The notes under the pieces were generated by a model that made no database searches, was not told the origin of the DNA, and saw nothing but the letters and a program-made list of their open reading frames with translations. This document shows, in pieces, positions 1-31,477 of a DNA stretch of 64,000 bases. This DNA is from Tateyamaria omphalii (GTDB lineage Bacteria; Pseudomonadota; Alphaproteobacteria; Rhodobacterales; Rhodobacteraceae): assembly GCF_014651375.1 (NCBI RefSeq), contig NZ_BMWT01000007.1:1-64000 (forward strand), given 5' to 3'. Both the position numbers and the translations under genes were made by a program. The first letter of the stretch is position 1. Every line of letters begins with the position of its first letter.

Positions 1-520
1 AAAAAAAACGTGAGCGGTCACAGCCAGCCGGGATTTGCTGCACCCTAAGGTGCGGCGCAACGCCGGACACAAGGCGACCCACATGGCTGGACAGCACACA
101 TGCCATGCCACAGCTTTTCAGTCCGGCTTCGATGGCAGGTCGTGGGTCCTCTGGCCAAAGCGCCCACGGTGACGTCAGATCATTTCCATGAACAATCGCC
201 GCTGTCGGCGCAATTCCGGCAATCGCTTCTGCATGAACAAGGGGCAGAGCGTCGCAAAACAGCACGATATCCGGTCCAAAATCGCTCAATCGCTGCCGCA
301 GGCGACAGCCTGTTTCGGCGACCTCTTGAACGGTCTGGCAAGACACCAGACCCTCCAACCCGGTGTGCGCATATCGAACCGGAGCAGACGGGCGCTGATC
401 TTTGCGCGTGACGACCAACACGTCATCACTTTTGGCGATTTCAGCAGCCATATCCTGCACCAACCGCTCGATGCCTCCAACCATCGGAGAGAAACAACTG
501 GTTACCAATGCAACGCGCAT
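1..520 (-). CDS. Glycosyltransferase family 4, N-terminal part (runs off the left edge)
   Basis: An open frame begins at an ATG (complement of 518-520) and stays open to base 1, so only about 173 N-terminal residues are present. It starts MRVALVTSCFSPMVGGIERL; the GGIERL loop after the first beta strand is typical of the N-terminal Rossmann domain of GT4 (GT-B) retaining glycosyltransferases. Further on there are Rossmann-like stretches such as PDIVLFCDALPLVHAEAI. A good ribosome site (GAGGGAAG) precedes the start, and the start overlaps the sulfotransferase stop by 19 bases, so it belongs to the same operon. The donor and acceptor sugars cannot be read from this half. The catalytic EX7E region would lie outside the window. 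Confidence 0.85.
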   Translation of the reverse strand, partial: MRVALVTSCFSPMVGGIERLVQDMAAEIAKSDDVLVVTRKDQRPSAPVRYAHTGLEGLVSCQTVQEVAETGCRLRQRLSDFGPDIVLFCDALPLVHAEAIAGIAPTAAIVHGNDLTSPWALWPEDPRPAIEAGLKSCGMACVLSSHVGRLVSGVAPHLRVQQIPAGCDRSRFF

Positions 521-1197
521 GGGCTTCCCTCATCCGTGGCATTGTCCCGCGCACGCGTTATTCTGGTCCGATCCGGTTGCGGCAGATACCCAAACCGCCA
601 GAAATCCTGTGCATACAGTCGGTTGACGTTGATCAAAGCTCTGCCTTCTATCGGCAAAGACATAACGCGATCATGGGTCACGTTGGCCCGACCCAAATTT
701 GCAAACAACGGCGCCATTTCGATCAAAACGTCCAAACCGTCTTCTATGCGGTGCACGACGTCGGGGGGCGGAAGCGGTTGTCGCCCACTGGTCAACAGGG
801 ACACTTGCGGACGCAAATGCCCGTTGCCAACCACGCTTGGCAATAAGCCGAGGAAGTCCTTGAACGTCAGCGACTTCAGCGCTGCCAGCTTGCGGTCGTA
901 GCTCCCAAAAGGCCAAAGACCCAGCCTGCGCAGGATCGCCCTCTGGCACCACTGGAAAGGGGCCTTTTCCCGTCCGTTCAAATCCTGAAAAAGCTTGTCG
1001 CGATAAAAGGAACGCAATCTGTCATACGGGTTGCGTGCCAGCACAACATGGCGCGGGGGTGTTGCGCGCCGCAAAAGACGCCGCGCCTCACGCTCGGCAA
1101 TCTGGCAGAGGTCCGGGCTGGCAACGAGGGTCGAATACATGACCTTGTAAGAGGTTGAAATGACCAGGTCATTGGTTCGAGACAAAAACCTTGGCAT
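502..1197 (-). CDS. Sulfotransferase family protein
   Basis: 231 residues. The N-terminal ISTSYKVMYSTL is placed like the PAPS 5'-phosphosulfate loop. The segment LARNPYDRLRSFYRDKL matches the 3'-phosphate site of sulfotransferases (R, then R and S before an aromatic residue). It lies 12 bases downstream of the HlyD gene with a strong ribosome site (GGGGAGAG) and overlaps the GT4 gene. In this operon it would most simply decorate the secreted product with sulfate, probably on a sugar hydroxyl; that is inference. The fold is divergent, so the substrate is unknown. It belongs to the Sulfotransfer_2-like group rather than to the cytosolic steroid group. Confidence 0.7.
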   Translation of the reverse strand: MPRFLSRTNDLVISTSYKVMYSTLVASPDLCQIAEREARRLLRRATPPRHVVLARNPYDRLRSFYRDKLFQDLNGREKAPFQWCQRAILRRLGLWPFGSYDRKLAALKSLTFKDFLGLLPSVVGNGHLRPQVSLLTSGRQPLPPPDVVHRIEDGLDVLIEMAPLFANLGRANVTHDRVMSLPIEGRALINVNRLYAQDFWRFGYLPQPDRTRITRARDNATDEGSPCALHW

Positions 1198-1209
1198 TCG
1201 ACTCTCCCC

Positions 1210-2493
1210 TCAGATTTCGCGGAAAGCGGTTTGGAAAGCTTGCTGAAGTGGCTCGGTCAGGTACTCAATTACCCGGCGTTCGCCCACGACGATATCCGCT
1301 TCGATTGCCATACCCGGAACCAGCCGTGCGCCCGATTCAATCAACCATTCAGGACTGTCATCAACTGCAAGGTTGATCGTGTAGCCTGACGACCTGTCGC
1401 TTTCCGCACGATCCGGCGACACGAATGTCACCCGTCCCGTCAGGATGCCATAGCGCACAAATGGCAACCCGTTGATGCGCAAGTTGGCGCGCTGGTCCGC
1501 GGCAACAAACGCGATGTTGTTCTCGGGCAATACGGCTTCGGCCACGATCGGCACGTCGGTCCGCACCAACTTACCCAACTGTTCTCCAGATTCGACGAAA
1601 CTGTTCGGGGACATGTCCTTCAGCCAAAAGACTTCTCCGTCCGTGGGTGCAATGACACTGCACAACTGCCGTTGAGAATCCTGCTCTGCCTGGATTTGTT
1701 CCAGCGCTGTGTACCTTTGATCAAGTTCCGTCAGCCGAGAGACGATATCCGCCTGCATTTCTATCCAGGTCTCTCGGTGTTCCTGCCGGGTCCGGTGCCG
1801 TTCGATTTCCGTGTTTTCAATCTGCAATGCTCGGGTGACAAGGATGACCTCGGCATCCGCAACGGCATCCGTCGCATTCTCCAGTGCCACCTGTGCCGCA
1901 GAACCTCGTTCGGCCAACTCACTCAATCGCGCGCGTTCGCGGCGAAGCTGCGCAAGCATGCGTTCCGCCCTGTCTCGTTCCAGGCGGGCCATCTCTTCGG
2001 CAACTGCATATTTTCGATCATCAAGACGGGTTCGGGTCTGCATATCTTCGACCCTGTCGCGAAACCGTGCAACCTCATCGCGCAGCGAAGCTGTCAAGGC
2101 TTCGGAGCGCTGACTCAATCGGTCTTCGAGCGATTGCGCCTGAGAGGTTGGCAGCATAAGCGCAGCCTTGTCCAACTCCTTGCGCAGCTGCTGACCAATC
2201 TCGAGCCGTTCAAGTATGTTGAGTTCTGCAACACGCTCTTCGAATGCACAGTCATAGCGCAATAGTGGCGTGCCGCGTTTGACACGCGCACCGCTGCGCA
2301 CAAGCACCTGTTCGACCTGACCGTCCCTTGGGCTGTCGACGAAGTATTGGATGTTGTCCGATGACAAGCGTCCATGGGCCGTCACGACGACTTCGACCTT
2401 GGTGAACAGCAGCGCTCCGGCGGCAAGACCGAACAGGCAGTACATCGCACGCGACACTGCAACTTGACGCGAGATATCCGAAGCGCTGAACAC
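1210..2493 (-). CDS. HlyD-family periplasmic adaptor (membrane fusion protein)
   Basis: About 427 residues. It has one N-terminal membrane segment (MYCLFGLAAGALLF), then a split lipoyl-like half beginning VTAHGRLSSDN and SPRDGQVEQVLVRSGARV. A long charged coiled coil follows (roughly residues 85-250), then a beta-barrel end with VLPENNIAFVAADQ and LVPGMAIEADIVVGERRV, as in HlyD/LapC. It would link the ABC exporter of this operon (10309-11979) to an outer-membrane channel; no TolC gene is visible. The start is uncertain: GTG at 2493 has a GGTGG site 7 bases ahead and does not overlap the previous gene, whereas GTG at 2532 would overlap it by 37 bases and has no clear site. Confidence 0.85.
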   Translation of the reverse strand: MFSASDISRQVAVSRAMYCLFGLAAGALLFTKVEVVVTAHGRLSSDNIQYFVDSPRDGQVEQVLVRSGARVKRGTPLLRYDCAFEERVAELNILERLEIGQQLRKELDKAALMLPTSQAQSLEDRLSQRSEALTASLRDEVARFRDRVEDMQTRTRLDDRKYAVAEEMARLERDRAERMLAQLRRERARLSELAERGSAAQVALENATDAVADAEVILVTRALQIENTEIERHRTRQEHRETWIEMQADIVSRLTELDQRYTALEQIQAEQDSQRQLCSVIAPTDGEVFWLKDMSPNSFVESGEQLGKLVRTDVPIVAEAVLPENNIAFVAADQRANLRINGLPFVRYGILTGRVTFVSPDRAESDRSSGYTINLAVDDSPEWLIESGARLVPGMAIEADIVVGERRVIEYLTEPLQQAFQTAFREI

Positions 2494-2495
2494 CG

Positions 2496-2804
2496 TTACA
2501 CCACCGGTTCGGGCATGCGTGCGTCGATCCACAACTCGTGCAGATCAGCCAGCAAACGCACACAGCGATTAAAGGTCAGGCGCCGCGCATTGTACTTGGT
2601 GACATACAGTGTCGCGATGTCGTCGAGCGGAAAGCGATCCAGCCACGCAACGATCCGCTCGGGGCTTGCACCCGGACCGTCCACCGTCTGCGCCTCCATC
2701 GCCATGACAAGCAATTGCCGCGCCCGGTCGGTATGTTCAACGTTGCGTTCCGATAGCCGCGTCAACAGCTTGTCAGCCCAGACGTCAAAAACTGATGCCG
2801 TCAT
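2496..2804 (-). CDS. Small unknown protein between PhyH and HlyD
   Basis: 102 residues, ATG at 2804 overlapping the PhyH stop by four bases (ATGA), so it is translationally coupled. The protein is helical in look, with many Arg, Leu and Asp residues, no signal peptide, no membrane segment, no cysteine pair and no leader-peptide GG site. One stretch reads TLYVTKYNARRLTFNRC. I do not recognise a family. Its position just before the HlyD adaptor allows a role as an accessory of the exporter or a small carrier/assembly protein, but nothing in the sequence proves this. Confidence 0.6.
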   Translation of the reverse strand: MTASVFDVWADKLLTRLSERNVEHTDRARQLLVMAMEAQTVDGPGASPERIVAWLDRFPLDDIATLYVTKYNARRLTFNRCVRLLADLHELWIDARMPEPVV

Positions 2805-3610
2805 GCCGTCACTCCGCCGAAGTCGAGCGCATCAACACTGCCGCAGACCACCGGAGACAGTTCGGTATCCCTGATCTGTGATACAGCATCCTTGTAGTCG
2901 TTTTCTGGAAGCAAGCGGTTCCGTTCGGTGCGCAGATGACACGCTATGGAATAGCGAACGCCGCCACCCTCGTTGCCAGCGCTGCCATGAAGGACATCGG
3001 AATGGTGAAACGAAACGAACCCCGCAGGACCTGTTGCAATTGTTTCGCGCCATTCGACCCGGTTGTGGCTGAGGATCGACGACTTAAGCTCTTCCAGGGT
3101 GGCCTTGTGCGAGAACCCACTGCCGTTTAGCGCACCTTGGCGATGCGATCCCGAGACGTAGATCAATGGCGATGAGTCCGCCGCGATATCGACCAGCGGA
3201 ATCCAGGCCGTTATGAAACTGCCGGTCAGGAAAGATGCATATTGCCCGTCCTGATGCCATCCAACATGGTTTGCACTGTCCGTCGCACCCGGTTTGCGCA
3301 AGGCGTGACAATACCAGACCTGAACCGTTTTCACCCCCAGAATCGAACGCACCGCATCGCAGAAGGTTGGCGCACGCAGCAACGAGTCAATCAACGGGCT
3401 GACAAGATGCGGGTGATCAATACGCGCTTGTCCAGCGTCGATCCCATCGGGATGATAGGGCACCAACCGCGCAGCGGTCCCGACAGGGAAATCTCGGTAC
3501 AGCCGCTCCAGCTCATTGCGGGCATCTACGATCTCGGATGGCTGGAACACCTCGTGGACATTGATAAATCCGTCTCTCTCGAAGTCAGCCTGCGCAGTTT
3601 TTTCGATCAT
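2801..3610 (-). CDS. PhyH-type Fe(II)/2-oxoglutarate dioxygenase
   Basis: About 269 residues of the phytanoyl-CoA dioxygenase family. The iron facial triad is visible as HQDGQYA (His and Asp) and the distal His in VLHGSAGN, followed by VRYSIACHLR carrying the Arg expected to bind 2-oxoglutarate. Start choice: ATG at 3610 is preceded by GGAGAGAAGAGAC, a strong ribosome site. An upstream ATG at 3625 overlaps the glycosyltransferase stop (TGATG), but it would place that ribosome site inside its own coding sequence. Such enzymes hydroxylate lipids, peptides and natural products; here a tailoring hydroxylation of the prenyl or sugar part is the simplest guess. Confidence 0.8.
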   Translation of the reverse strand: MIEKTAQADFERDGFINVHEVFQPSEIVDARNELERLYRDFPVGTAARLVPYHPDGIDAGQARIDHPHLVSPLIDSLLRAPTFCDAVRSILGVKTVQVWYCHALRKPGATDSANHVGWHQDGQYASFLTGSFITAWIPLVDIAADSSPLIYVSGSHRQGALNGSGFSHKATLEELKSSILSHNRVEWRETIATGPAGFVSFHHSDVLHGSAGNEGGGVRYSIACHLRTERNRLLPENDYKDAVSQIRDTELSPVVCGSVDALDFGGVTA

Positions 3611-3624
3611 GTCTCTTCTCTCCA

Positions 3625-4413
3625 TCAAAGCGGTAAGAACGCGAAGTCGATATCGTTTTGGGGGGCGCGCAACGCAGCTGTCTGCTGCGTGCCTTGGCGT
3701 GCCAAAACCCGGCGGCGCGCTATGTCCTCGGCATAGGTTCGGCGTGTTTCGGACCCAAGGCCAATGGTCGGACTGCTTGTCATCGCGGCCTCGTGGCGCC
3801 GGTAGAAAAACATCGGCTCGGCAAGATTGCGCACCGGCCCGTAGCGGATGGCGCGCATGAAAAAATCCTGATCGGCTGCGCAGCGGCGCGTGCCATCGTA
3901 GCCGCCCAACGCCTCGTAGACGCTACGCCGTGCCATTACAGTCGGATGCAGAATGGTGAACTTCTTGCCCAGCCGTTCTGCAAGATTGACGTTTCGCGGC
4001 ATGTTTACGCGGCGCCCCAGAAAGCCTGTGGCGTTGATCTCGTAATAACTGCAACCCACAACACCCACACTCTGGTGGCGATCAAGATACGCCAATTGCC
4101 GCTCCAGGCGCTCAGGCGCGCTGACATCGTCCGCATCGTGTATGCTTACGAACTCGGTTTCGACCATAGCGAGGCATCGGTTGAGCAGCCGGTACGTTCC
4201 AACATTTCGATCACTGCGATACAGCCGCAAACGCGGATCACTGCGCCACGGCGCTATGGCGGCGTGCCAGTCATGTCCGGGGCTCGCATCATCCACCAGG
4301 ATCAAGTGAAAGTCCGGGCAGGTCTGCCGTTCCAGCAGTGACCGCAATGCGTCCGCCAGATATTCACCAGACCCATAATGGGTCATTAAAACTGTTACAC
4401 GCCCATCAGTCAT
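3625..4413 (-). CDS. Glycosyltransferase family 2
   Basis: 262 residues of GT-A fold. It begins VTVLMTHYGSGEYLADALRS, then LILVDDASPG (first Asp pair), HDADDV (the DxD-like metal site) and CAADQDFFMRAIRYG (the ED/QD region near the catalytic base). The start ATG overlaps the stop of the preceding GT51 gene (ATGA). No membrane segments, so it is a soluble or peripheral inverting glycosyltransferase that probably uses a nucleotide sugar. It is one of at least four sugar transferases in this operon, implying an oligosaccharide of several residues. Confidence 0.85.
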   Translation of the reverse strand: MTDGRVTVLMTHYGSGEYLADALRSLLERQTCPDFHLILVDDASPGHDWHAAIAPWRSDPRLRLYRSDRNVGTYRLLNRCLAMVETEFVSIHDADDVSAPERLERQLAYLDRHQSVGVVGCSYYEINATGFLGRRVNMPRNVNLAERLGKKFTILHPTVMARRSVYEALGGYDGTRRCAADQDFFMRAIRYGPVRNLAEPMFFYRRHEAAMTSSPTIGLGSETRRTYAEDIARRRVLARQGTQQTAALRAPQNDIDFAFLPL

Positions 4414-5072
4414 TGGCACGCCTCAAGCAACACATCGCTGTTTGAGTCCGGCGCGCAATCACCCGCGACATAGCGTTGGAGCCGCGCAAGACGCTCGTCG
4501 CTCGCAGAATTTCCGGCAACAGGTGCATAAGTACGCGGCGCCACCAAGGCACCTGTCAGACGCAGGAACTCGTCCGGTTCAAGGTCGGCGACAGATTTAC
4601 CAAAGAAAACATCAGCCGCATTCCTGAACCCGTACACGGCCTGCCCATCTCGTCGGCCAAGGTAGACCACATTCAGAAATGCCGTCAGTTGATCTTCTTT
4701 CGACACGTTTGGCGCCACGACGAAATGTGCAATCAGGCTCTGTTCGATCTTGGCAAAGCCGGTCTGAAAATCTTCAAAGAACAGCTTTTTGGTAATGGCT
4801 TGCGGAATGGATGTCAGGCCTGCACCTGGGGTGGCCATGTCGACCCCGGAATGCTCAAAGAACGCCGGGTCTTCGATCAAAATCAGGGCATCTTGCTGCC
4901 ATTCCGTCAGGTCCCCCCACCGGAGCAGATCAACACTGTCCGCGCGATACGGCGCAAATGCCACATCCAGCCGATCATGTGCGACCCAAACACGCCAGCC
5001 CTGAAACGCAACCAAACCGGTCAAAGCCAAAAGCGCGAGCGTCAGAGTGGCGCGGCGCACAGGTTTTTTCAT
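4410..5072 (-). CDS. Stand-alone GT51 transglycosylase-domain protein, divergent
   Basis: 220 residues: an N-terminal signal anchor (residues about 8-30) and then a single peptidoglycan glycosyltransferase (GT51) domain with no transpeptidase. Motif I is present as EDPAFFEHSGVD, with Glu67 as the expected catalytic base. The late motifs VYLGRRDGQAVYGFRNAAD and FFGKSVADLEPDEFLRLTGA are typical. Motif II is abnormal: TSIPQA stands where families have STITQQ. By eye, the RKxxE motif III reads AKIEQ (107-111), so the second Glu would be Gln. It lies between dxs and a GT2 gene with ATGA couplings on both sides. It could be a lipid-linked glycan polymerase, or a target variant giving self-protection. 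Confidence 0.8.
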   Translation of the reverse strand: MKKPVRRATLTLALLALTGLVAFQGWRVWVAHDRLDVAFAPYRADSVDLLRWGDLTEWQQDALILIEDPAFFEHSGVDMATPGAGLTSIPQAITKKLFFEDFQTGFAKIEQSLIAHFVVAPNVSKEDQLTAFLNVVYLGRRDGQAVYGFRNAADVFFGKSVADLEPDEFLRLTGALVAPRTYAPVAGNSASDERLARLQRYVAGDCAPDSNSDVLLEACQ

Positions 5073-6931
5073 AGTGTGATTCCTTCAGAAAACCGGCGAC
5101 TGGCATGTGAACTTCCGTTGCGTTTGTCGGAGAAATGCATTGCCACAGCCGCCGAAATCGCCTCGCTGTCGATGCCTGCATCCGCCTGCATTTCCTTGAT
5201 CGGTCCATGGTCAATGAAACGATCGGGCAACGTAAGACTGCGCAGCACGGCCCCGTACCTGTCCAGGCTGTTCGCCTGTACCAGATGGGCAACTTGTGCA
5301 CCGAACCCACCACGGGCGCCCTCTTCAACCGTCAAGACCAGCTGGTGGTGGCGCATAAGCTGCGCCACAAGGTCGACATCAATCGGCCGTGCAAACCGTG
5401 CGTCCGCCACGGTTGCCTCGATACCAAGCAGGGACAGCGCGTCGGCAGCGGCAAGACAGTTGGCAAGACATGTGCCGAGGCTCAAGATGGCCACATCCCC
5501 ACCATTCCGGCAAAGCCGGCCTCGACCAATCGCAAGCGGTGCTGATCGCGTTTCGCTTACAGTTGTCGTGTCGCGCGGGTAACGCACAGCGCTCGGGCCA
5601 TCATCCATCGCGGACGCGGTCACGACCATGCGTCGCAGTTCGTCACCATCCGACGGCGCCATAACCGTGAAACCGGGCAACGCGCACAGGTAAACCAGAT
5701 CGAACGCGCCGGCATGTGTCGGACCATCCGCGCCCACCAAACCGGCACGATCAATCGCAAAGCGCACCGGCAGCGACTGCAGCGCTACATCGTGAACAAT
5801 CTGGTCATACCCCCGCTGCAGGAATGTCGAATAGATTGCGCAAAACGGTTTCATACCACCAGCAGCCAACCCTGCCGCGAACGTGACAGCATGCTGTTCC
5901 GCAATCCCGGTGTCAAAAAAACGATCCGGATAGGCGTCGGCAAAACGGTCCAGGCCGGTTCCGCCGGGCATGGCCGCAGTGATTGCACAAATGTGCGGAT
6001 CAGTGGCAGCAAGGTCGACAAGCGTATTGCGAAACACTTCGGTATAGGGCTGCCGGTGCATTTTGGCACATTGGGGCACTGCTGCCACGGTCCGGGGACG
6101 AGACGGCTGCGGCTTGCAGGCGTGACCGCAATCTGGGTCGCTTGCGGTCGCGTGGCCCTTTCCTTTTTCGGTCACCACATGCACAAGAACGGGTCCCGGT
6201 GAGGCATCGTCGCGTATTTCGCTGAATGACCGATGCAGATCGCCAATGTCGTGCCCGTCAACAGGCCCAACCGAGCGGAACCCCAGTTCCTCGAACAACG
6301 GCGCGACCTCGCCTGCGCGGACCCGTTTGAGATGTCCGGCCAACGCACCGGTTGTTGGGGCAATCGACATACCATTGTCGTTCAGCACGACGATTAACCG
6401 GGCGCCAAGATCTCCAGTGTGATTCAAGGCTTCCAGTGCCATACCACCGCCAAGTGCCCCGTCGCCAATCACACAGACGACATCGCCGATTGGCTTTTCA
6501 GAACCTTTATCTTCCAAAAGGTCCCGCGCCATCGCAAACCCAAGGCCAGCCGAAATGGAGGTTGCGGCATGGGCTGCTCCGAATGGGTCAAAAGGGCTTT
6601 CCGCCCGTTTCGTAAAGCCGGACAGTCCGCCCTTCTGCCGCAGTGTCGGCATCCGGTCCCGTCGCCCGGTCAGCATTTTGTGGGGATAGACCTGATGACC
6701 AACATCCCAGATCAACTTGTCTCGCGGAGTATCGAAAACCGCATGCAGAACAACGGTCAGTTCAACGACGCCAAGCCCGGAGCCAAGATGCCCACCAACG
6801 CGCTCGACAACCGCGATGGTTTCAGCGCGCAACTCTTCCGCGACACGCGACAGATCTTCTTCATCCAATTCTCGAAGACCGCTTGGAAGTTCAATCATAT
6901 CCAGCATGCCAGAGACGCTCAGGTCTTCCAT
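5069..6931 (-). CDS. dxs: 1-deoxy-D-xylulose-5-phosphate synthase
   Basis: 620 residues, normal length. DXS condenses pyruvate and glyceraldehyde 3-phosphate with thiamine diphosphate in the first step of the MEP isoprenoid pathway. Visible marks: LIWDVGHQVYPHKMLTGRRD near the N terminus, the thiamine diphosphate motif GDGALGGGMALEALNHTG, and TGIAEQHAVTFAAGLA in the pyrimidine-binding domain. Start at ATG 6931 with a very strong site (GGAGGAG), overlapping the upstream GT2 by 13 bases. An extra dxs inside a product operon, together with idi and two prenyl synthase-like genes, indicates that isoprenoid precursor supply is raised when the operon is on. Confidence 0.95.
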   Translation of the reverse strand: MEDLSVSGMLDMIELPSGLRELDEEDLSRVAEELRAETIAVVERVGGHLGSGLGVVELTVVLHAVFDTPRDKLIWDVGHQVYPHKMLTGRRDRMPTLRQKGGLSGFTKRAESPFDPFGAAHAATSISAGLGFAMARDLLEDKGSEKPIGDVVCVIGDGALGGGMALEALNHTGDLGARLIVVLNDNGMSIAPTTGALAGHLKRVRAGEVAPLFEELGFRSVGPVDGHDIGDLHRSFSEIRDDASPGPVLVHVVTEKGKGHATASDPDCGHACKPQPSRPRTVAAVPQCAKMHRQPYTEVFRNTLVDLAATDPHICAITAAMPGGTGLDRFADAYPDRFFDTGIAEQHAVTFAAGLAAGGMKPFCAIYSTFLQRGYDQIVHDVALQSLPVRFAIDRAGLVGADGPTHAGAFDLVYLCALPGFTVMAPSDGDELRRMVVTASAMDDGPSAVRYPRDTTTVSETRSAPLAIGRGRLCRNGGDVAILSLGTCLANCLAAADALSLLGIEATVADARFARPIDVDLVAQLMRHHQLVLTVEEGARGGFGAQVAHLVQANSLDRYGAVLRSLTLPDRFIDHGPIKEMQADAGIDSEAISAAVAMHFSDKRNGSSHASRRFSEGITL

Positions 6932-8906: not shown

Positions 8907-8919
8907 CCCAGAACTCCGT

Positions 8920-10289: not shown

Positions 10290-10308
10290 GTCATACTCTC
10301 CTGCAGTT

Positions 10309-11979: not shown

Positions 11980-11988
11980 CGATGTCAC

Positions 11989-12963
11989 TCAAACCGTCAT
12001 GGGCTGGGCCATTTCGGGCACGAAACGCGTTGCCTCGATCTTTCTACGGGTCGCACGGATCGCTCCTTCAACACGCTCCGACGCCGCCGTCAGACGGTCT
12101 GAAAGCCGCTTGTACCCGGCCTGCTCCGACTGATCCCGCAAATCCAACAGACGCTCACGCGCCGCAGCGATCAGTTCTGATTGAAAATCCTCCGCTTGGA
12201 TGGCCGTGCCACAGGCGGAAACATCGCGGGCGGCAATGGCACGGGCCAGCCGCGCGTGCCGCCCTTGCAAGAGAGCGATCGGTCGGGTCGTGTTTGCGCC
12301 CGCTTCGATGTCCACCTCGATATCAAAAATGTCGTCAAGCTGTGCACACCAATCGCCAAACTTCCCGGCCAAACGGACCAGATCGTTGCACCGTTCCGGC
12401 GATAGCCTGTCACATGTCATCGCGTGGGCAATGGTTTCGTGGAACGCGCCGATGCGGCGTTCACCCGCTTGCGCCATGCGCTTCAGGCGGGCCAGGGTCT
12501 GCGGTTCCGGCTGCGGTTTGCCCTCGTTCACGAAACCGGGAATGAGAGGATACACTTCACGCAGAAAGACATCTTCCTGCCGGCCAAAGAACCATTGCGG
12601 GCGGCGCAGCGCCTCGAAGATCAGCAGGTAAACCAGCATCATGTGACCGGGAGACATCCGTTCGTCCCCGTCCAGGAAATCATCCGTAACGGATGTCGTG
12701 AGGCTGATGAACAACGGCCCCGACGCCCGATCAATCACCGACCCAATGTCCTCTTCATTCAGGTCCAGAGCCTGTTCGACCAGCCAAATCGCAGGATAGC
12801 CCATGCACTTGCCCGCGATGTAATGCAGGCAATCCTCCAGCTCGGTTTCCGGCAATTGCGGCACACCACGCAGTATGACCTTGCAATGGTTGCGCACGGC
12901 TGCGCGCGTCTTTCCCGCGTCCAGCACTCTTTCCAATACATCGGATACGTAGACAACGGTCAT
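11989..12963 (-). CDS. Isoprenyl-diphosphate-synthase-like protein A
   Basis: 324 residues, largely helical. Two aspartate-rich motifs are visible at the right spacing for a class I trans-isoprenyl diphosphate synthase fold: SVTDDFLDGDER and CAQLDDIFDIEVD. The rest is far from housekeeping IspA or IspB proteins: I do not see the usual KT, RP or GGxR signatures near the first motif. It could therefore be a chain-length synthase, a prenyl transferase that joins a prenyl chain to a polar acceptor, or a terpene cyclase. The start ATG overlaps the GT-B stop by four bases, so the two are coupled. Confidence 0.7.
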   Translation of the reverse strand: MTVVYVSDVLERVLDAGKTRAAVRNHCKVILRGVPQLPETELEDCLHYIAGKCMGYPAIWLVEQALDLNEEDIGSVIDRASGPLFISLTTSVTDDFLDGDERMSPGHMMLVYLLIFEALRRPQWFFGRQEDVFLREVYPLIPGFVNEGKPQPEPQTLARLKRMAQAGERRIGAFHETIAHAMTCDRLSPERCNDLVRLAGKFGDWCAQLDDIFDIEVDIEAGANTTRPIALLQGRHARLARAIAARDVSACGTAIQAEDFQSELIAAARERLLDLRDQSEQAGYKRLSDRLTAASERVEGAIRATRRKIEATRFVPEMAQPMTV

Positions 12964-14153
12964 GGTTGGGCAATCTCCTGTAGAGGTTTGAAAGGCATTT
13001 GAGAGATCAGTCGCGACACCCGCGGACCAGTCCGGAACGCGCCAAGCACGTCGCGAATGAAACCGGGCACTTCCGCCTTCGCCGTCGTGACAAGCGTGTC
13101 GTCACCGTTCACCAAGCGCTCTGTCGCCGTCACCAACGCCGGCATGTCACGGAAAAATCCACCAAGACCTGTGTCGGCAACCAGCTCGCCCACCCAGGTT
13201 TCCATCGGCAGCCCGGAATCCATAGCCAGAACCGGGATACCGCGCGCCAACGCCTCGAACACCGTCGATGGCGCGGACTTGCAAATAAAGGCCCTGCGCT
13301 CCAGCTGGGCAAGATCATCAAGCCGGGACAGATATTCATCTACGGGCAATGCGCCATCGATGCGCCACGCAAGCCCTCTGGACCGCGCAAACCGAACAAT
13401 AAGGTCAAGCAAACGGTCATTGCCGCTGCAAATGATCTGCAACTCAAGCCCGCGACCTGCATCTGCCAAACGTTCGATCAGCGGCCAATACTCGTCCCCA
13501 CCACGATTGATGAACAAACCCAGGTTAAGAGGCACCTGCATCCCGAACGATGGGGCAGAGATCATCGGACCCATCACACTGACCCTGTCCGGATCCAACT
13601 CCGGCAGCGCCGCCAGCAGACGCCGCGCACCCGCCTCTGTCTGAACAATCTGCAGATCAGGCGCGGCACTCACATGCACCGGCAGGGTCAAAAGCCCATC
13701 ATTGGTGACATAATTCACCACCTGCGGACCTCGCACACGCGCCGGACCAAGCGCGTCGCACACAAGGCGTGAAATCAGCCCCTTCGTTCCAATGACAACG
13801 TCCGGGGCACCGGCACTGATCCGGTCCCGCACCTTTCCGAAACCCAACTCGTCGCTGGACAGTTTCCCGCTTTCAACTGAACTGTGAACCTCAGCAATCA
13901 GAGCGTCATATTGAGCCCGCCGTGTTTGTGGGCTGTCGGCCGACTGCGAAAGCCCGCGTATCCGCTGTCCGATTTCTGCGAAATAGGGGCAGAAGTCCTC
14001 GAAACTCTCATGCTCGATTTCGTCAAACAGCCCGGACTGATCCAGGGCCGATTGCAACCGTTTCGCCGACAAACGATTTCCCAGCTCACCCCAGCTACGG
14101 GACGAAAAGATCAATACGCGCGACCGACGCGCTGTACCTGCATCAAGCGACAT
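12960..14153 (-). CDS. GT-B glycosyltransferase, MurG/MGDG-synthase-like
   Basis: 397 residues, starting at ATG 14153 (MSLDAGTARRSRVLIFSS), which overlaps the amidotransferase stop by 11 bases. The layout is that of a two-Rossmann GT-B enzyme: an N-terminal nucleotide-like start VLIFSSRSWGELGNRLSAKR, a middle VIGTKGLISRL, and a C-terminal donor-binding region AFICKSAPSTVFEALARGIPVLAMD, where the SxxTxxEA pattern is the MurG/GT28 signature. Such enzymes attach sugars to lipid acceptors. Several glycosyltransferases of phosphoglycolipid antibiotics belong to this class, which fits the neighbourhood, but donor and acceptor are not determined. Confidence 0.8.
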   Translation of the reverse strand: MSLDAGTARRSRVLIFSSRSWGELGNRLSAKRLQSALDQSGLFDEIEHESFEDFCPYFAEIGQRIRGLSQSADSPQTRRAQYDALIAEVHSSVESGKLSSDELGFGKVRDRISAGAPDVVIGTKGLISRLVCDALGPARVRGPQVVNYVTNDGLLTLPVHVSAAPDLQIVQTEAGARRLLAALPELDPDRVSVMGPMISAPSFGMQVPLNLGLFINRGGDEYWPLIERLADAGRGLELQIICSGNDRLLDLIVRFARSRGLAWRIDGALPVDEYLSRLDDLAQLERRAFICKSAPSTVFEALARGIPVLAMDSGLPMETWVGELVADTGLGGFFRDMPALVTATERLVNGDDTLVTTAKAEVPGFIRDVLGAFRTGPRVSRLISQMPFKPLQEIAQP

Positions 14154-16017
14154 GACGTATCCCCCATGTGTCCTGCCAAAGCTGCAGGCAAAACAACGAC
14201 CAGATCTGTTTCGACAAATCGGCTTCGCCCCGCATGTGCCGTGACAGCAAGCTCGACACGGCCTCGGGCCGGAACAGGCCACCCCGTTGCACGGTGGCAG
14301 GGCTCAGCGTGTCACAAATCCGCTCGCGCAAGCTCGAGCGCAAAAGCCGACCCATCGGCAGCCGGAAGCCGCGTTTCTTGCGTTTCAACAACTTTGGATC
14401 GAGATGCGCCTCGGCAATGCGCCGCAGAATCTGCTTGCCCTTGCCGCGCTTCAGCAAATGCTCAAGCGGCAATGCAAAGGCGAATTCAACCACGTCCTGA
14501 TCCAGGTAGGGCGAGCGAAACTCGATCCCGTTAATCATACTGCCCCGGTCCAACTTGGGCAGAATCCGCGATTGCAGGAAATCGCCAAGCATCACGCGGC
14601 GCAGTGCTTCGGGCCCGTCGCCACCAGGCTGATCAGCCTGTGCAAATGCGATGTCAGGCAGCAGAATGTTCGACAGCTCAACCGGGTCAAACGCAGACGC
14701 GGCTGCGCGAAATTTCAGGCCATCCGGCACCCCCAGCGCACGCACCAGCATCTGCGCAACATGTCCGGGGCCCATGTCACGCCCGGACCGTCCAAACGGC
14801 AAAGCCCTAAGCAACCGCCGCGACAACTGCCCCGATGGGTCGAATTTCTCGACCGACCTCAGGGTGCCCAAGGCGCGATACATCGCATAACCCATGAACA
14901 GGTCGTCGGCGCCATCGCCCGTCAAAAACGCCTTTACATGACCCTGCGCCTGACCGGTGATCGCGGCAATGGCTAGGTACGAAGGATCAGCAATCGGTTC
15001 GTCCAAAGGCGCAAGAAAACGATCAATGCCCGCATTGAGATCTTCGCTCCCGAGATGCACGGGAACATGGGACAATCCGAGCTGCCGCGCGGTCAGTGCA
15101 GCATGCTCAAGATCACCGCTGTCGTCGTTGTCGAACGTCGCCGTGTAACACGTGATTTGATGATCACGCGCCTGTTCCTGCACGGCCAGAGCCGCGATTA
15201 GGCTCGAGTCGAGCCCGCCACTTAACAGAATGGCCTTTCGGTTGTCCTGAAACCGAAGACGCTGCGACACCGACCGGCGCAACAACGTTTCCAGGTGCGC
15301 TGCACTGCCGTCCAAACACCCACGCTCGGTCACGGGTGCCTTGTCCGAAGCAGGCTGCCAGTACCGCGCTCGGGTCAGACCATTGTCGGAAATGACCACC
15401 ACCTCGCCGGGTGAAACCTTGTCTATGTCGCGCGCCAACGCGCAGTTGGCAGGCACAGCATTCAGCAAGAAGTAATCACGCAGCGCATCGACATTCAGGG
15501 ATCCGCGCGTTTGCGCCGCCTGAAGCGGGCCAGCTTCGGACGCGAAATGGACCCCAGACTGGTCATGAGTGAAGTAGAGCGGCTTTTTTCCAATGTAGTC
15601 GCGCGCAAGGATCAAGGCACCACGTGATTGGTCCACGATGGCCAGCGCAAACATGCCCCGCAACAGCCGGAGCGCGCCCTCACCATCGCGCCGCCACAGC
15701 GCTGCGATCAATTCGCATTCGGATGTTGTTTTCAGAACCCCGCCCGCAGAACACCATGCATCACGCAGCACGTGGTAGTTGTAGATCTCTCCGTTGAACA
15801 CAACGACAATATTGCCATCGTCACTTTGGTACGGTTGGGCAGCGCTGGCATCGTCGTGAAATGACAACAACGCGTGCCCCAGAACAAAATTCTTGCCCTT
15901 CAGCACCCGCTGCCCTTCCGGACCACGATGTGCGAGACGCCCAAGCTCGCGTTCGCACCAATCCGGATCGGTTTGATCCAGTGCGTTCGTCGCCCAGTGT
16001 CCGATGATCCCACACAT
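14143..16017 (-). CDS. asnB: Asparagine-synthetase-type glutamine amidotransferase
   Basis: 624 residues. The N-terminal Ntn glutaminase domain begins MCGIIGHW with the nucleophile Cys2, and the C-terminal ATP-pyrophosphatase domain has the PP-loop LLSGGLDSSLIAAL. The family activates a carboxylate by adenylation and amidates it with ammonia from glutamine. In housekeeping metabolism the product is asparagine, but in biosynthetic operons such proteins amidate uronic acids or form other amide bonds. The gene lies 14 bases after the carbamoyltransferase with a GGGGGAT site. Its context supports a tailoring role; the sequence alone cannot exclude asparagine synthesis. Confidence 0.92.
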   Translation of the reverse strand: MCGIIGHWATNALDQTDPDWCERELGRLAHRGPEGQRVLKGKNFVLGHALLSFHDDASAAQPYQSDDGNIVVVFNGEIYNYHVLRDAWCSAGGVLKTTSECELIAALWRRDGEGALRLLRGMFALAIVDQSRGALILARDYIGKKPLYFTHDQSGVHFASEAGPLQAAQTRGSLNVDALRDYFLLNAVPANCALARDIDKVSPGEVVVISDNGLTRARYWQPASDKAPVTERGCLDGSAAHLETLLRRSVSQRLRFQDNRKAILLSGGLDSSLIAALAVQEQARDHQITCYTATFDNDDSGDLEHAALTARQLGLSHVPVHLGSEDLNAGIDRFLAPLDEPIADPSYLAIAAITGQAQGHVKAFLTGDGADDLFMGYAMYRALGTLRSVEKFDPSGQLSRRLLRALPFGRSGRDMGPGHVAQMLVRALGVPDGLKFRAAASAFDPVELSNILLPDIAFAQADQPGGDGPEALRRVMLGDFLQSRILPKLDRGSMINGIEFRSPYLDQDVVEFAFALPLEHLLKRGKGKQILRRIAEAHLDPKLLKRKKRGFRLPMGRLLRSSLRERICDTLSPATVQRGGLFRPEAVSSLLSRHMRGEADLSKQIWSLFCLQLWQDTWGIRHVA

Positions 16018-16031
16018 CTACTGCGATCCCC

Positions 16032-17618
16032 CTAGGATGCCACCACAAGCCGGTCGGCAAGGACGTAGGCATCGACAGTGCCGGACGGGAAATCGTCGAA
16101 AACATCGCTTTCGGTCAGGCAAATGGGCCGACCGCCAGAGTTCAGCGACGTGTTGATCAGCGCCGGCGATCCCGACAACGGCTCGAACTCACCAAGCACC
16201 GCGTGCACAAAGGGGTTCTGGCTTTGGGAAACGGTCTGAATGCGCGCCGTGTTGTCGACATGCGCCGCCGCACCAAAGCCAAGTCCCGTGACATCGAAAT
16301 TAAACAGCATCGCCGGGGACTCCGGCCGACCGGGTAGAATACGGGCAAACGTCTCTTCCCGCATGATCGGGGCAAGCGGACGGAAACTTTCGCGCCCCTT
16401 CAGACGCTCACTCACCCGTTCCTTGACCCCTGGCACATTCGGGTCGGCCAGTATCGACCGATTGCCAAGGGCCCGCGGCCCGATTTCGGACTGGCCCTGC
16501 GCAACTGCAATCACCTTGCCCTCGGCCAACATGCGGCCCACCCGCTGCGGGGACGCGTCCACAGAGGACATCCCGCGTTGCGCAAGAAATCGCGCCGCTG
16601 TCTCAGGCGTCACCGGATCGCCAAGCGCGCACAGGGCAAACGCACCGGGTTGCACCCCGTCGACAAACATCTGTGCATACAAGGCCGCACCCAGTGCCTG
16701 CCCCGCATCGTTGCAGGCTGACGGTACGAACAGCGGCACGCTCAGCGCATTGCGCAACGCCGAATTGGCCACAATGTTCAGGGCGCAACCACCGGACAGG
16801 GCCACGGCCTGCGCATTGTGTTCACCCACCGCCTCGGTGACGCGCCCGATGATCGCACTGACGAACAAATCCTGAAGGCTCGCCACAAGGCGGCACTTGC
16901 CATCGAAATCAAGTGAACCGCCAAGCTCACCCAGCAACCGGTCCGCCTGTTGCGTCTGGTCGGGTTCGGACAAATCGGCAATGCAGGGGTCAACATCGCG
17001 CAAAGCCGCACTTTCGCGGGCACCAGGCCCCTGAAAACCACCAAGCGCCATTGCTTTCCCGGCAACGCCCGGATGACGCCCCAAGCCAACAAGGTACCCG
17101 ACCGAACTCCACCCGAAGCCTGTGCCAAACCACGGCATCAGGTTCCAATCCACAAGCTGCAAACGCCCGTCCGCATAGAAGTACAAAGCGTTGCGCGAGA
17201 AGACCCCCCTGCCCTCGTTCACAAGGATCAATGTGCGATCACGCCACCCCGCCTCGTGCAGGCCCAGAACAGCATGGGACACTTCATGTGAGACGATTGT
17301 GCAGGGAATATCCCGCCCGAACATGGAACTGACCGTGTTGTAGTGAAGCTTTCGCTCCGAAATCAGCGCACGCTCAGCCAGGTCCGGTTGTGGAACATCA
17401 AGGATGTTCCTGCGAAAATGACTGCTTGATGCAATGCGCCCAATCCGGTTCGGATCAAAGGACGGATGCGCGCGCACGGCCTTGAGAGCAGCATCGACGC
17501 GGGTTTCATAGCGCACACGCGTCAGCCGCTCCGTCTCCATTGTGAAGACAAGCTCGCCCTCATCCCACAGGCAAACGCCTGTATCATGGCCAAGCGAATG
17601 TAGTCCCAAAGTGAGCAT
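16032..17618 (-). CDS. NodU/CmcH-family carbamoyltransferase
   Basis: 528 residues. It begins MLTLGLHSLGHDTGVCL, as carbamoyltransferases of this family do. The Kae1-like metal site appears as SHEVSHAVLGLHEAG, and the C-terminal YrdC-like/active-site block is GQSEIGPRALGNRSILADP, nearly invariant in the family. These enzymes move a carbamoyl group from carbamoyl phosphate, through an adenylate, to a hydroxyl of a sugar or antibiotic (NodU, TobZ, CmcH, MoeM5). A clear AAGGAG site precedes ATG 17618. Together with the amidotransferase and radical SAM neighbours it points to a decorated sugar. Confidence 0.93.
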   Translation of the reverse strand: MLTLGLHSLGHDTGVCLWDEGELVFTMETERLTRVRYETRVDAALKAVRAHPSFDPNRIGRIASSSHFRRNILDVPQPDLAERALISERKLHYNTVSSMFGRDIPCTIVSHEVSHAVLGLHEAGWRDRTLILVNEGRGVFSRNALYFYADGRLQLVDWNLMPWFGTGFGWSSVGYLVGLGRHPGVAGKAMALGGFQGPGARESAALRDVDPCIADLSEPDQTQQADRLLGELGGSLDFDGKCRLVASLQDLFVSAIIGRVTEAVGEHNAQAVALSGGCALNIVANSALRNALSVPLFVPSACNDAGQALGAALYAQMFVDGVQPGAFALCALGDPVTPETAARFLAQRGMSSVDASPQRVGRMLAEGKVIAVAQGQSEIGPRALGNRSILADPNVPGVKERVSERLKGRESFRPLAPIMREETFARILPGRPESPAMLFNFDVTGLGFGAAAHVDNTARIQTVSQSQNPFVHAVLGEFEPLSGSPALINTSLNSGGRPICLTESDVFDDFPSGTVDAYVLADRLVVAS

Positions 17619-17656
17619 TGCGATACTCCTTGCGGTCTAGTTGAGGTGGCGGATCA

Positions 17657-19048
17657 TCAAATGTCTCGAACGAAGTTGCTGTTTGCTTTCAGCAGGATGG
17701 CAAGCCCAGACGCGACACTCCGGAAGGTCTTTGGATTGACCAGATGGCGCATAAGAAGAGGCGTTTTGCGCATGCGCAGATAGAATTTCTTGTAGGCAAG
17801 TTGCGACCGGGCCTCGGCACCGGCGACAAGCGGATCAATCCGGTCTACCGGCTCACCGCGAATGTAGCGTTGCCAGTACTCGCCATCGATCTTGCCCTCT
17901 TCAACCGCCTCGCGGTGCAGCTGCGTGCCGGGCAATGGGGTCGCCGTGTAAAAGCTCGCGTAATCGATGGGCAAACTGCATGCCATATCGAGGGTCTTGA
18001 GGTACTGTTCTTCGCTCTCGCCCAACCAGCCGACAATAAAGTAGGCAAATGTCTGAATACCCGCTGCCTTGGTCGCGACAATCGCATCCCGTATCTCGTC
18101 CAGGTCGGCGCGCTTCCGCATGCGCCGCAGGATGTCCTCGTCTCCTGACTCGACACCAAACCGCAGGCGGATGCATCCGGCGGATGCCATGGCTTCCAGC
18201 ATCTTGGGATCAACCAGATCAACCCGCGTGGGGGCCTCCCATCGGACCTTGAGACCGGTTTTGCGGATCAAGTCACAAATCTCGTAGACGCGTTTCTTCT
18301 TCATCGTAAACACGTCGTCGTAGAACATGATCTCGCGCACGCCATGGTCCTGGACAAGCTTCGTCATCTCGCCCACCACATCCTCGGCCGAGCGGTACAT
18401 GGATTTCTTGTCGACGGCCTGCTTGAAACAGAAACTGCATTGGAACGGGCACCCACGACTGGAGATCATGGTCGCAAAGGGGCTTTTGGCCATAATCGAA
18501 TGGAACAGGCGCAAATCGGTGGACTTGCGCGAAGGCCACCCCATCGCTTCAAGGTTCAGCATGGGGGCCGCCATGTTGCTAAAGCCCCGGCCAACCAGCC
18601 CACGGATTTGGTCAATGGGCTCATCGGCCTCAAGCGCGTCGGCAAGCTCGGTCATGATCGAAACGCCCTCACCGACACCCACATAGTCGATGCAATCATG
18701 CCAAAGGTTCTCTGCCGCGAAGACCTCGGTGTGCGGTCCCCCCAAAATCACCTTGGCCCCAATGGATTTTGCAATCTTGGCGGCCTCGATCGCGCCGGGA
18801 ACGCCGGGCGTGGTTGTTGTAATGCCCACCAAAGCAGGGTTCAGGTGCGACAGTCGGGCATGCAGTTCTTCCGATGTCAGGCCTTCCGCCTGCGCGTCAA
18901 CGGTGGTGCATTCATGGCCTGCACGCTCCAGCGCAGCTTCGATGTAGCAAAGGCCGAGATGGGGCAAAACGCCCGCCCGTCGCTGCATGAATTTCACCTG
19001 TCGTGAGTTCAGGCATTCGTCAAAGTTTCGGATCAGGGCAACCTTCAT
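17657..19048 (-). CDS. B12-binding-domain radical SAM enzyme
   Basis: 463 residues. The N-terminal part (residues 1-140) is a cobalamin-binding-like Rossmann domain with ITTTTPGVPGAIEAAK and LGGPHTEVFAA. The radical SAM cluster motif is SSRGCPFQCSFCF with Cys200, Cys204 and Cys207. The downstream RLRFGVESGDEDILRRMRKR is typical of the SAM-binding part of B12-dependent radical SAM proteins. Many members methylate unactivated carbons in natural products or remodel rings. It is the first enzyme after luxI (23-base gap, AGGAAGG site). A C-methylation of a sugar or prenyl part is the simplest proposal. Confidence 0.9.
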   Translation of the reverse strand: MKVALIRNFDECLNSRQVKFMQRRAGVLPHLGLCYIEAALERAGHECTTVDAQAEGLTSEELHARLSHLNPALVGITTTTPGVPGAIEAAKIAKSIGAKVILGGPHTEVFAAENLWHDCIDYVGVGEGVSIMTELADALEADEPIDQIRGLVGRGFSNMAAPMLNLEAMGWPSRKSTDLRLFHSIMAKSPFATMISSRGCPFQCSFCFKQAVDKKSMYRSAEDVVGEMTKLVQDHGVREIMFYDDVFTMKKKRVYEICDLIRKTGLKVRWEAPTRVDLVDPKMLEAMASAGCIRLRFGVESGDEDILRRMRKRADLDEIRDAIVATKAAGIQTFAYFIVGWLGESEEQYLKTLDMACSLPIDYASFYTATPLPGTQLHREAVEEGKIDGEYWQRYIRGEPVDRIDPLVAGAEARSQLAYKKFYLRMRKTPLLMRHLVNPKTFRSVASGLAILLKANSNFVRDI

Positions 19049-19071
19049 GAAGACCTTCCTAGTGTTCAGGG

Positions 19072-19731
19072 TTACAGGGCGCGCGCAGCGGTGATGGCAT
19101 GATTGGCGAGATCGACGCCCAGCGTTGGCGAAAGCTCGGCGGGATTGACGAGCGGCTCGGGGCGCAGCTCGTCAATCACCTCTTGCGACACTTCGAAAAG
19201 GCCCGCCACGGTCGCAAGGCCATCGTATCTGTGCACCGCACCAAGCCGCTCAAACCGGCAGCCTGCGCGCCGCAGAATGCGCTCTAGATACAGATCATAG
19301 ACCGACACGATATTGATCAGCCCCGTGTCCAAAGCGTGCGTGAACAGACCGGTCAACAGCTCGCGGGTCACATGGTTGATGCCGTCAAGGCCATAGTTCC
19401 GCACTGCTTCCGTATCGACACAGAACCGCGAACTTTCATGGATCAACGGATCCCGGACAGGGCCTGATGGCGCACCAACTTCTGGAAACACGTCTCGCAA
19501 CATGTTTGGGCCGGTTGTCGGCAGCAACCGCAACGAAGCAAGAAGTCGGCCCTGATCGGTGACACAAATATACAGAGGGTCCAAGTCGTCAAACCGGTCC
19601 TTCTCTGCGTTGTCGACGACGGTCAGGCTCCAATTGCGTCGATGTTTGAACTGCCGTGCTCGCAGCGCGAACATCTGTTTAGCCAGTGGGATATGTGCGG
19701 AAATTTGGGAGGCTCTAAAGGCTTCAATCAT
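19072..19731 (-). CDS. luxI: LuxI-family acyl-homoserine-lactone synthase
   Basis: 219 residues with the family marks in order: ARQFKHRRNW (conserved Arg, Phe and Trp), DRFDDLDPLYI, GRLLASLRLLPTTGPNML, and HESSRFCVD with the acyl-pocket region after it. It makes an N-acyl-homoserine lactone from SAM and an acyl carrier protein thioester. It is the first gene of the long operon, so signal synthesis and product enzymes are made from the same transcript, a positive loop. An AGGAC site precedes the ATG. A lux-box-like palindrome lies 61 bases upstream. The acyl chain length cannot be read safely from the sequence. Confidence 0.95.
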   Translation of the reverse strand: MIEAFRASQISAHIPLAKQMFALRARQFKHRRNWSLTVVDNAEKDRFDDLDPLYICVTDQGRLLASLRLLPTTGPNMLRDVFPEVGAPSGPVRDPLIHESSRFCVDTEAVRNYGLDGINHVTRELLTGLFTHALDTGLINIVSVYDLYLERILRRAGCRFERLGAVHRYDGLATVAGLFEVSQEVIDELRPEPLVNPAELSPTLGVDLANHAITAARAL

Positions 19732-19792: not shown

Positions 19793-19810
19793 CCTCGTAA
19801 AATTACGAGG
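19793..19810 (-). promoter_or_regulatory. lux-box-like palindrome upstream of luxI
   Basis: The 18-base CCTCGTAAAATTACGAGG is a perfect inverted repeat (8-2-8). It ends 61 bases before the luxI start, and a -10-like TCTAAT (complement of 19768-19773) lies 19 bases further in. This matches the usual geometry in which LuxR-type activators bind over the -35 region. The divergent luxR gene makes this the obvious operator. Binding itself is inference. Confidence 0.75.
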
Positions 19811-23273: not shown

Positions 23274-23308
23274 GTCATCCTCCCTTTCGCACGCTCAAAA
23301 ATCCAATC

Positions 23309-28049: not shown

Positions 28050-28052
28050 ATC

Positions 28053-30273: not shown

Positions 30274-30274
30274 G

Positions 30275-31348: not shown

Positions 31349-31352
31349 GTCC

Positions 31353-31416: not shown

Positions 31417-31477
31417 TATTTTCAAGATGTTGTTGTAGCGGTGGATTTTGGCACAAGGCGCCCGTTATCGCGTATGC

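Follow-up and report, generated by a model that had tools for sequence, protein, structure and literature searches.

How can a bacterium build a moenomycin-type phosphoglycolipid when the enzyme that makes the first intermediate of the pathway is not detected in its genome? This question is raised by a stretch of 64,000 nucleotides from Tateyamaria omphalii (Rhodobacteraceae; positions 1 to 64,000 of contig NZ_BMWT01000007.1, assembly GCF_014651375.1), which we call the window and whose first 19,731 nucleotides carry an operon that begins with a luxI gene. An annotation made from the letters without database searches (the original prediction) had read this operon as quorum-controlled and as resembling the moenomycin pathway. 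We favour, with a probability of roughly 0.62, the view that the operon encodes a phosphoglycolipid pathway linked to quorum sensing and that PS324, one of its proteins, most likely replaces MoeO5. The orthology of the core enzymes, the non-detection of MoeO5, the exclusion pattern in nine genomes and the motifs of PS324 are drawn from sequence, and its fold is predicted; the reaction of PS324 is inferred, as are the regulation, tailoring, export, self-protection and product activity discussed below.

Homology to moenomycin clusters

The operon almost certainly specifies a moenomycin-type pathway, as judged from the orthology of its core. When 72,556 plasmid records were searched with tblastn, the best match of its radical SAM protein was found on Streptomyces clavuligerus pCLA1, with 60.3% identity across all 463 residues. 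Identities to the S. clavuligerus cluster are 60% for MoeK5, 44% for MoeM5, 36% for MoeF5, 32% for MoeGT1, 38% and 40% for the two GT2 glycosyltransferases and 21% for MoeN5, where the names F5, GT1, H5, K5 and M5 are those we take to apply from gene position and from the S. ghanaensis cluster. For the AsnB-type protein, similarity is far higher to the protein in the MoeF5 position (36%, E 1.8e-112) than to that in the MoeH5 position (26%, E 1.8e-7). The protein encoded at 8067-8909 was compared with all structures of the PDB by phmmer, and it matches MoeN5 at E 8.6e-11, with the next chain other than MoeN5 at E 0.38. The pCLA1 locus also encodes homologues of the MoeO5 and MoeN5 proteins of Shimia (see below), and one report describes a moenomycin cluster with MoeO5 in S. 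clavuligerus ATCC 27064 (PMC13096315).

With the moenomycin clusters of S. clavuligerus (pCLA1) and S. viridosporus, the operon thus shares an orthologous MoeK5 together with homologues of MoeM5, MoeF5, MoeGT1, two GT2 proteins and MoeN5, and the resemblance seen in the original prediction proves to be true homology. When 23 query pieces from the operon were compared with six other clusters, a general set comprising MoeK5, MoeM5, MoeF5, MoeGT1, both GT2 proteins and the ABC exporter was matched in every one. Relative to an actinomycete moenomycin cluster, the operon adds PS324, luxI/luxR, dxs, idi, a GT51 gene, PhyH, sulfotransferases and HlyD, whereas MoeO5 is undetected in its genome.

In moenomycin biosynthesis, MoeGT1 adds the first sugar, MoeF5 forms the carboxamide, MoeK5 and MoeM5 provide the C-methyl and carbamoyl groups, and MoeN5 adds the second prenyl unit. 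If their counterparts in the operon act alike, they would build the moiety with which moenomycin binds peptidoglycan glycosyltransferases. From the retained genes one would expect a product with the C-methyl, carbamoyl and carboxamide groups of the F ring, further sugars and a prenyl lipid. No MoeH5-like protein was matched in the window, in 40 kb from the right-hand end of its contig or in any of the ten other stretches of this genome that were compared, and thus the chromophore arm is not expected. The Shimia epimerase likewise finds no match in the window or in these 40 kb; the uronic acid might be supplied by a protein 28% identical to it that a different contig (L025) encodes. The product could be hydroxylated and sulfated, given the PhyH gene and as many as three sulfotransferase genes. 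One review (PMC3608906) describes a binding core composed of the EF sugars, the carbamoyl group and the phosphoglycerate-lipid.

Searches for MoeO5

MoeO5, which has a TIM-barrel fold, produces the initial prenyl-phosphoglycerate intermediate of the pathway. It was sought with PF01884, with the Shimia MoeO5 protein and with a model built from six MoeO5 sequences, and it remained undetected in the searchable genome of T. omphalii, which leaves out seven tiny contigs (C16-C22, 9,485 bases) that read entirely as N. A tblastn search with two MoeO5 proteins also returned no match, either in the window or in ten further stretches of its genome. The original prediction had placed a possible MoeO5 to the left of base 1. 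The window is the left end of a 196-kb contig whose final 48 bases are identical to window positions 1-48, and the replicon is therefore circular, at about 196.3 kb. Reading across the join reveals the remainder of a GT4 gene, sulfotransferases and a 319-aa protein; these genes, together with the negative results in the searchable genome, rule out a MoeO5 at that place. We conclude from the sequences that the operon is a variant rather than a plain moenomycin cluster, because MoeO5 was sought and not found.

Whole-genome tests for MoeO5 and PS324 were made in nine genomes, which include those of five of the 15 actinomycete MoeK5 loci described below. The MoeO5 model matches six of the nine (Shimia and the five actinomycetes) at E values from 1e-134 to 1.2e-120. 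Its best value in the T. omphalii genome is 0.017, and no match was obtained in the whole genomes of Parvularcula and Sphingomonas. A further locus outside this test (L055) also carries MoeO5.

Distribution of PS324

A PS324 model gives strong matches (E 3e-140 or better) in T. omphalii, Parvularcula and Sphingomonas, which are exactly the three of the nine genomes without MoeO5. The model was built from these three proteins and their scores follow by construction, so that the absences constitute the test. In the six MoeO5 genomes there is no match except for one stray at E 0.05 in an actinomycete. Thus, each of the nine genomes has either MoeO5 or PS324. Moreover, PS324 is the sole query piece (of 23) that is present in both of the other clusters lacking MoeO5 and in no compared cluster that has it.

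PS324 directly adjoins MoeGT1 in the window and in Parvularcula, and MoeGT1 is the enzyme that places the first sugar on the MoeO5 product. A MoeN5 model, in a test that took in two actinomycete loci, has no match in the Sphingomonas genome, and therefore PS324 is the only prenyl-synthase-like protein recognised in that cluster. When PS324 was sought in 385 genomes of the class and 398 of the phylum, T. omphalii was the sole match. These samples partly overlap, the first-look candidates scored in some genomes numbered five, and the Parvularcula and Sphingomonas genomes were not among the matches; the protein is therefore rare in these samples, and absence elsewhere is not implied.

Motifs of PS324

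The original prediction listed two prenyl-synthase-like proteins, and both are real. One (8067-8906) is the MoeN5 homologue, and the other (11989-12963) is PS324, in which two DDxxD motifs occur and for which an isoprenoid-synthase fold is predicted. No Pfam family matches PS324 at E 0.01, and a genome search with PF00348 (polyprenyl_synt) found three other places and not PS324. The protein has no match to PcrB, which places it outside that TIM-barrel sequence family, and its structural model is all-helical, with prenyl diphosphate synthases and MoeN5 as the top structural matches.

Since a Z-score below about 13 in a helical fold does not decide the matter by itself, it is the motifs that carry the case. 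The residues D94, D95 and D98 and D210, D211 and D214, which form the two aspartate-rich motifs, are invariant in the three PS324 proteins. The GGKRxRP region, which together with an RR after the first aspartate motif serves to bind isopentenyl diphosphate (IPP), reads GKCMGYP in all three proteins, and the RR is missing from them. The FQ before the second aspartate motif reads CA, CS or CG. By comparison, the T. omphalii genome encodes three normal synthases, all with RR; GGKR is present in two of them and GGAR in the third. This combination of kept DDxxD motifs and lost IPP-binding residues suggests that PS324 should still bind an allylic diphosphate and activate it, as MoeN5 does, for an acceptor other than IPP. 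PS324 probably takes over the step of MoeO5 and would then be the enzyme that joins the first prenyl chain to the three-carbon acid. In such a pathway dxs and idi could boost the supply of precursors, PhyH and the sulfotransferases would modify the product, the ABC and HlyD proteins would export it, and the GT51 protein of the cluster may protect the producer.

Weighing the alternatives

Several points weigh against a replacement of MoeO5 by PS324. The similarity of PS324 to solved prenyltransferases is weak (best E 0.0064), and the hhalign comparison with MoeN5 is a weak link, having a probability of 11% even with both aspartate-rich motifs in register. The AlphaFold model, made with three sequences, is of middling confidence, with a mean predicted local distance difference test score (pLDDT) of 70 and a predicted template modelling score of 0.74. 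Prenyl synthases and MoeN5 fill the best 50 rows of its VIA-align comparison, led by a prenyl diphosphate synthase (Z 12.8, root-mean-square deviation (rmsd) 4.5, 262 residues), with MoeN5 at Z 12.3 (rmsd 4.7, 228 residues), and all such scores lie below the value of about 13 from which Z becomes informative for helical folds. Foldseek puts the same families first and returns nothing at E 0.001 or lower (best 6.7e-3). The model of the Parvularcula protein is poor (pLDDT 60), and its first match, MoeN5 at Z 9.7, again falls below the informative level. Furthermore, the genomes share history, and the exclusion between MoeO5 and PS324 may therefore represent one switch rather than nine independent cases. 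The all-N contigs limit the negative result for MoeO5, and the MoeN5 homologue has a degenerate second aspartate motif in addition to its low (21%) identity to that of S. clavuligerus.

The strongest competing explanation, which we nevertheless regard as rather unlikely, holds that the pathway is of the moenomycin type but that the role of PS324 is confined to making a special prenyl diphosphate. Some other enzyme, such as the metallophosphoesterase of the operon or a protein encoded elsewhere in the genome, would then join prenyl chain and phosphoglycerate, or the head group would differ. The predicted prenyl-synthase fold and both aspartate-rich motifs of PS324 would suit such a role, and dxs and idi demonstrate that precursor-making genes have been recruited into the operon. 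However, the IPP-binding residues are lost, and PS324 is not found alongside MoeO5, a pattern that a mere precursor enzyme need not follow. In addition, if the genes of the general set are put aside, PS324 is the sole member of the 23 query pieces to occur in both other clusters without MoeO5. It is far less probable that the cluster has decayed, with MoeO5 lost and no product made. The failure to detect MoeO5 in the searchable genome is what such decay would leave, but the genes of the operon are open and tightly packed, and the set with PS324 and without MoeO5 has been kept in two other genera at MoeK5 identities of 57% and 70%. Least probable of all is an ordinary capsule, lipopolysaccharide or Nod-factor-like cluster with a chance resemblance to the moenomycin set. 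NodU-type, AsnB-type and GT2 proteins do occur in such clusters, and the best NCBIfam name for the carbamoyltransferase is NodU, but this match reaches 137 bits against a cut-off of 1000. The 60% identity of MoeK5, the restriction of PDB matches to MoeN5 and a gene set common to moenomycin clusters all argue against this explanation, and a capsule or Nod-factor cluster was rejected on the MoeK5 and MoeN5 matches.

Related clusters in other genomes

A scan with a MoeK5 alignment, in which each of 84,980 species was represented by a single genome, gave 79 loci. Eighteen of these are at least 56% identical to the MoeK5 of the window, namely those of 15 actinomycetes and of Parvularcula sp. BBD 1991-13 (70%), Sphingomonas sp. 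DG1-23 (57%) and Shimia ponticola WX04 (56%), and the next locus has 43%. The scan was seeded by two exact peptide patterns, and relatives that lack those patterns were therefore missed. More distant MoeK5-like proteins (38-43% identity; L056-L063) are found in Omnitrophota, Scalindua and Woesearchaeota. A scan of genome contigs with the MoeN5 homologue alone yielded no relative, and neither PS324 nor the MoeN5 homologue has a match in the 72,556 plasmid records. Within the family of T. omphalii, 394 genomes were searched with the MoeN5 homologue and three matched at E 0.001, the T. omphalii genome included; the weakest of these (G357, E 5.6e-4) was dropped when blastp gave no match of operon proteins at its locus (L017), and the remaining one (G230) is that of Shimia ponticola, with identical proteins. 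All searches with the MoeN5 homologue used 8067-8909, which is one codon longer than the gene with the ATG start.

The related alphaproteobacterial clusters are accordingly three in number. That of Shimia lies on a plasmid-like contig (76,004 bases) in a member of the same bacterial family and has the same core genes (MoeK5, MoeM5, MoeF5 and MoeGT1), with ABC and HlyD proteins of 24% and 23% identity. It differs by having MoeO5 (E 3.9e-46 to MoeO5 in the PDB), an epimerase and two MoeN5 homologues, and its compared stretches have no match to PS324, luxI, dxs or GT51. Clusters of this kind with MoeO5 therefore exist in this family. The Parvularcula cluster, from a metagenome-assembled genome, has the closest MoeK5 as well as PS324, MoeN5, metallophosphoesterase, PhyH, ABC, HlyD and sulfotransferase counterparts, and the order AsnB-GT1-PS324 is that of the window. 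Its differences are an outer-membrane efflux protein beside HlyD and the lack of matches to luxI, dxs, idi and GT51 in the compared stretch. Pfam was applied to ten selected open reading frames (ORFs) of the Parvularcula and Sphingomonas clusters. Directly before PS324, the Sphingomonas cluster carries another B12-radical SAM gene and a gene for a geranylgeranyl-reductase-like FAD protein (L054:768-3851), which hints at a reduced prenyl chain.

Some features near these clusters deserve mention in their own right. A phage-tail-sheath protein is encoded near the Shimia cluster (L016:8911-10521) with very long ORFs close by (L015), and the locus might encode a contractile injection system or a tailocin. 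Proteins of the beta-lactamase family PF00144 are encoded past the end of the operon (L022:12477-13724), at the Parvularcula cluster (L132:17603-18940) and at window positions 59286-61163.

A more distant comparison is offered by the Photorhabdus plu3366 cluster, which according to PMC13096315 has a MoeO5 homologue in a Gram-negative bacterium, is only distantly related to the moenomycin cluster and makes a product that is unknown. When placed in the S. viridosporus strain dO5, from which moeO5 is deleted, plu3366 is reported to have failed. Photorhabdus is absent from the 79 MoeK5-related loci of the species-genome scan. Among the open-access papers listed by our searches, none deals with such a cluster in alphaproteobacteria, subscription papers being outside the search.

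Evolution of the first step

A MoeK5 tree of 25 rows was computed, in which six outgroup rows were taken from the 61 loci with 43% identity or less (L056-L116); locus L052 was omitted for a match of unusual length. The other 19 rows form a MoeK5 clade (support 100/100) with the window protein inside. Shimia clusters with the actinomycetes (100/99), and the window protein pairs with that of Parvularcula (96/92). A single branch (100/99) separates the clusters of the MoeO5 type from those of the PS324 type. There are perhaps even chances that evolution has arrived at two solutions for the committed first step, the TIM-barrel MoeO5 of Shimia and the actinomycetes being one and the isoprenoid-synthase-fold PS324 of other alphaproteobacterial lineages the second. 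Under the distant outgroup Sphingomonas branches first, a root that rests on long branches, draws a warning from the program and is not firm. If it holds, the PS324 type was the first to branch, and the actinomycete pathway would have arisen later, when the step passed to MoeO5.

Regulation, self-protection and significance

Pfam searches place LuxI and LuxR domains side by side, with luxI heading the operon and luxR divergent from it, and this gene content suggests quorum control of the operon by LuxR. A perfect 8-2-8 inverted repeat lies between the two genes; when the sequence between them was shuffled 2000 times under a Markov model, such a repeat arose in 75 cases, and it is therefore suggestive only. 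Two further LuxI-family matches exist in the genome (G000:C6:70267-70731 and G000:C5:71140-71343), so the luxI of the operon is not the sole candidate signal source. In PMC3814723, the S. ghanaensis moenomycin cluster is described as having no cluster-situated regulator. Just past luxR, a weak phage-integrase-like ORF (21430-22323) scores E 7.6e-4, below the cut-off, and has no PHROG match.

The GT51 protein of the cluster keeps catalytic motif I (EDxxFxxHxG). Its motif II reads GLTSIPQA, whereas three of the four other GT51 domains in the genome have G[AG]STIxQQ and the fourth has GGSTLTMQ. Motif III is AK..Q instead of RK..E, with one of the four other domains (L145) having GK..Q. Two reviews place moenomycin binding in the conserved GT51 motifs (PMC4810414, PMC3608906), and the altered protein could be a moenomycin-insensitive polymerase or a decoy. 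It has no match in the compared stretches of Parvularcula, Sphingomonas and Shimia.

The C25 lipid is thought to cause the poor properties of moenomycin, according to PMC13096315. Gram-negative relatives that use another enzyme for lipid attachment, along with hydroxylation and sulfation, would broaden the chemistry around this lipid. The GT51 gene is a starting point for work on self-protection, and production might be switched on through luxI/luxR.

Operon layout and surroundings

All gene types listed in the original prediction were found among the window ORFs and by Pfam searches, in a single run on the minus strand, so that its description of an uninterrupted operon stands; a metallophosphoesterase is a further member beyond that list (Table 1). 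From luxI (19731) to PhyH (2801) adjacent genes overlap or are separated by no more than about 40 bp. The sole apparent gap, at 2533-2800 between PhyH and HlyD, is filled by an ORF of 102 aa. The start codons of three operon genes were picked by eye and then checked.

Table 1. Features of the operon and its control region, in window coordinates
Feature	Position	Strand	Evidence or remark
LuxR-type regulator	20279..21013	+	Divergent from operon; Autoind_bind 1.7e-22, GerE 4.4e-19
18-bp inverted repeat (8-2-8), candidate LuxR site	19793..19810		About 60 bp before luxI start
LuxI-type acyl-homoserine lactone synthase, first gene of operon	19072..19731	-	PF00765 E 2.6e-38
MoeK5 orthologue, B12-dependent radical SAM	17657..19048	-	60% over 463 aa to S. 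clavuligerus; 70% to Parvularcula; tree
MoeM5-type (NodU-type) carbamoyltransferase	16032..17618	-	44% to S. clavuligerus, E 2e-129
MoeF5-type amidotransferase, AsnB family	14143..16017	-	36% to MoeF5-position protein, E 1.8e-112
MoeGT1-type GT-B glycosyltransferase	12960..14153	-	32%, E 8e-40; ATG start by eye
PS324, predicted isoprenoid-synthase fold, candidate MoeO5 replacement	11989..12963	-	Genome distribution, model, motifs
ABC exporter, membrane and ATPase domains	10309..11988	-	Pfam
idi-like NUDIX protein (isopentenyl diphosphate isomerase)	9732..10289	-	NUDIX 1.2e-19; GTG start by eye
Calcineurin-like metallophosphoesterase	8920..9738	-	Pfam; counterpart in Parvularcula cluster
MoeN5 homologue	8067..8906	-	phmmer against PDB, MoeN5 E 8.6e-11; ATG at 8906
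GT2-type glycosyltransferase	6919..8070	-	38% to S. clavuligerus; match in 6/6 compared clusters
dxs, 1-deoxyxylulose-5-phosphate synthase	5069..6931	-	Pfam
Membrane-anchored GT51 domain protein, altered motifs	4410..5072	-	PF00912 4.3e-21; anchor read by eye
GT2 glycosyltransferase	3625..4419	-	40% to S. clavuligerus; match in 6/6 compared clusters
PhyH-type dioxygenase	2801..3628	-	PF05721 3.2e-20
102-aa ORF between PhyH and HlyD	2496..2804	-	No Pfam match up to E 1
HlyD-type membrane fusion protein	1210..2532	-	Pfam
Sulfotransferase	502..1197	-	PF03567 3.3e-5
GT4 glycosyltransferase, first part	2..520	-	Remainder across circular join, L022:19297-19998

The operon extends about 3.2 kb beyond base 1, into the right end of the contig (L022), where the remainder of GT4 is followed by a sulfotransferase, the 319-aa protein, a second sulfotransferase and then other genes of the replicon. 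The 319-aa protein (L022:17650-18609), which lies between the two sulfotransferases at the end of the operon, has no Pfam family. The replicon that bears the operon is circular, plasmid-like and alphaproteobacterial. Two genes near the operon (22284-24031 and L014:18089-19998) look partition-like by eye and have relatives (38% and 49%) on the contig of the Shimia cluster. Elsewhere in the window, consecutive genes encode a C4-dicarboxylate carrier, an amino acid permease and arginine deiminase (33856-38018), and genes for acetate kinase and PHB polymerase lie further to the left (within 24705-38018). Two genes that match V/A-type ATPase families (V_ATPase_I, alpha/beta subunit) are carried at 41949-47398 of this plasmid-like replicon.

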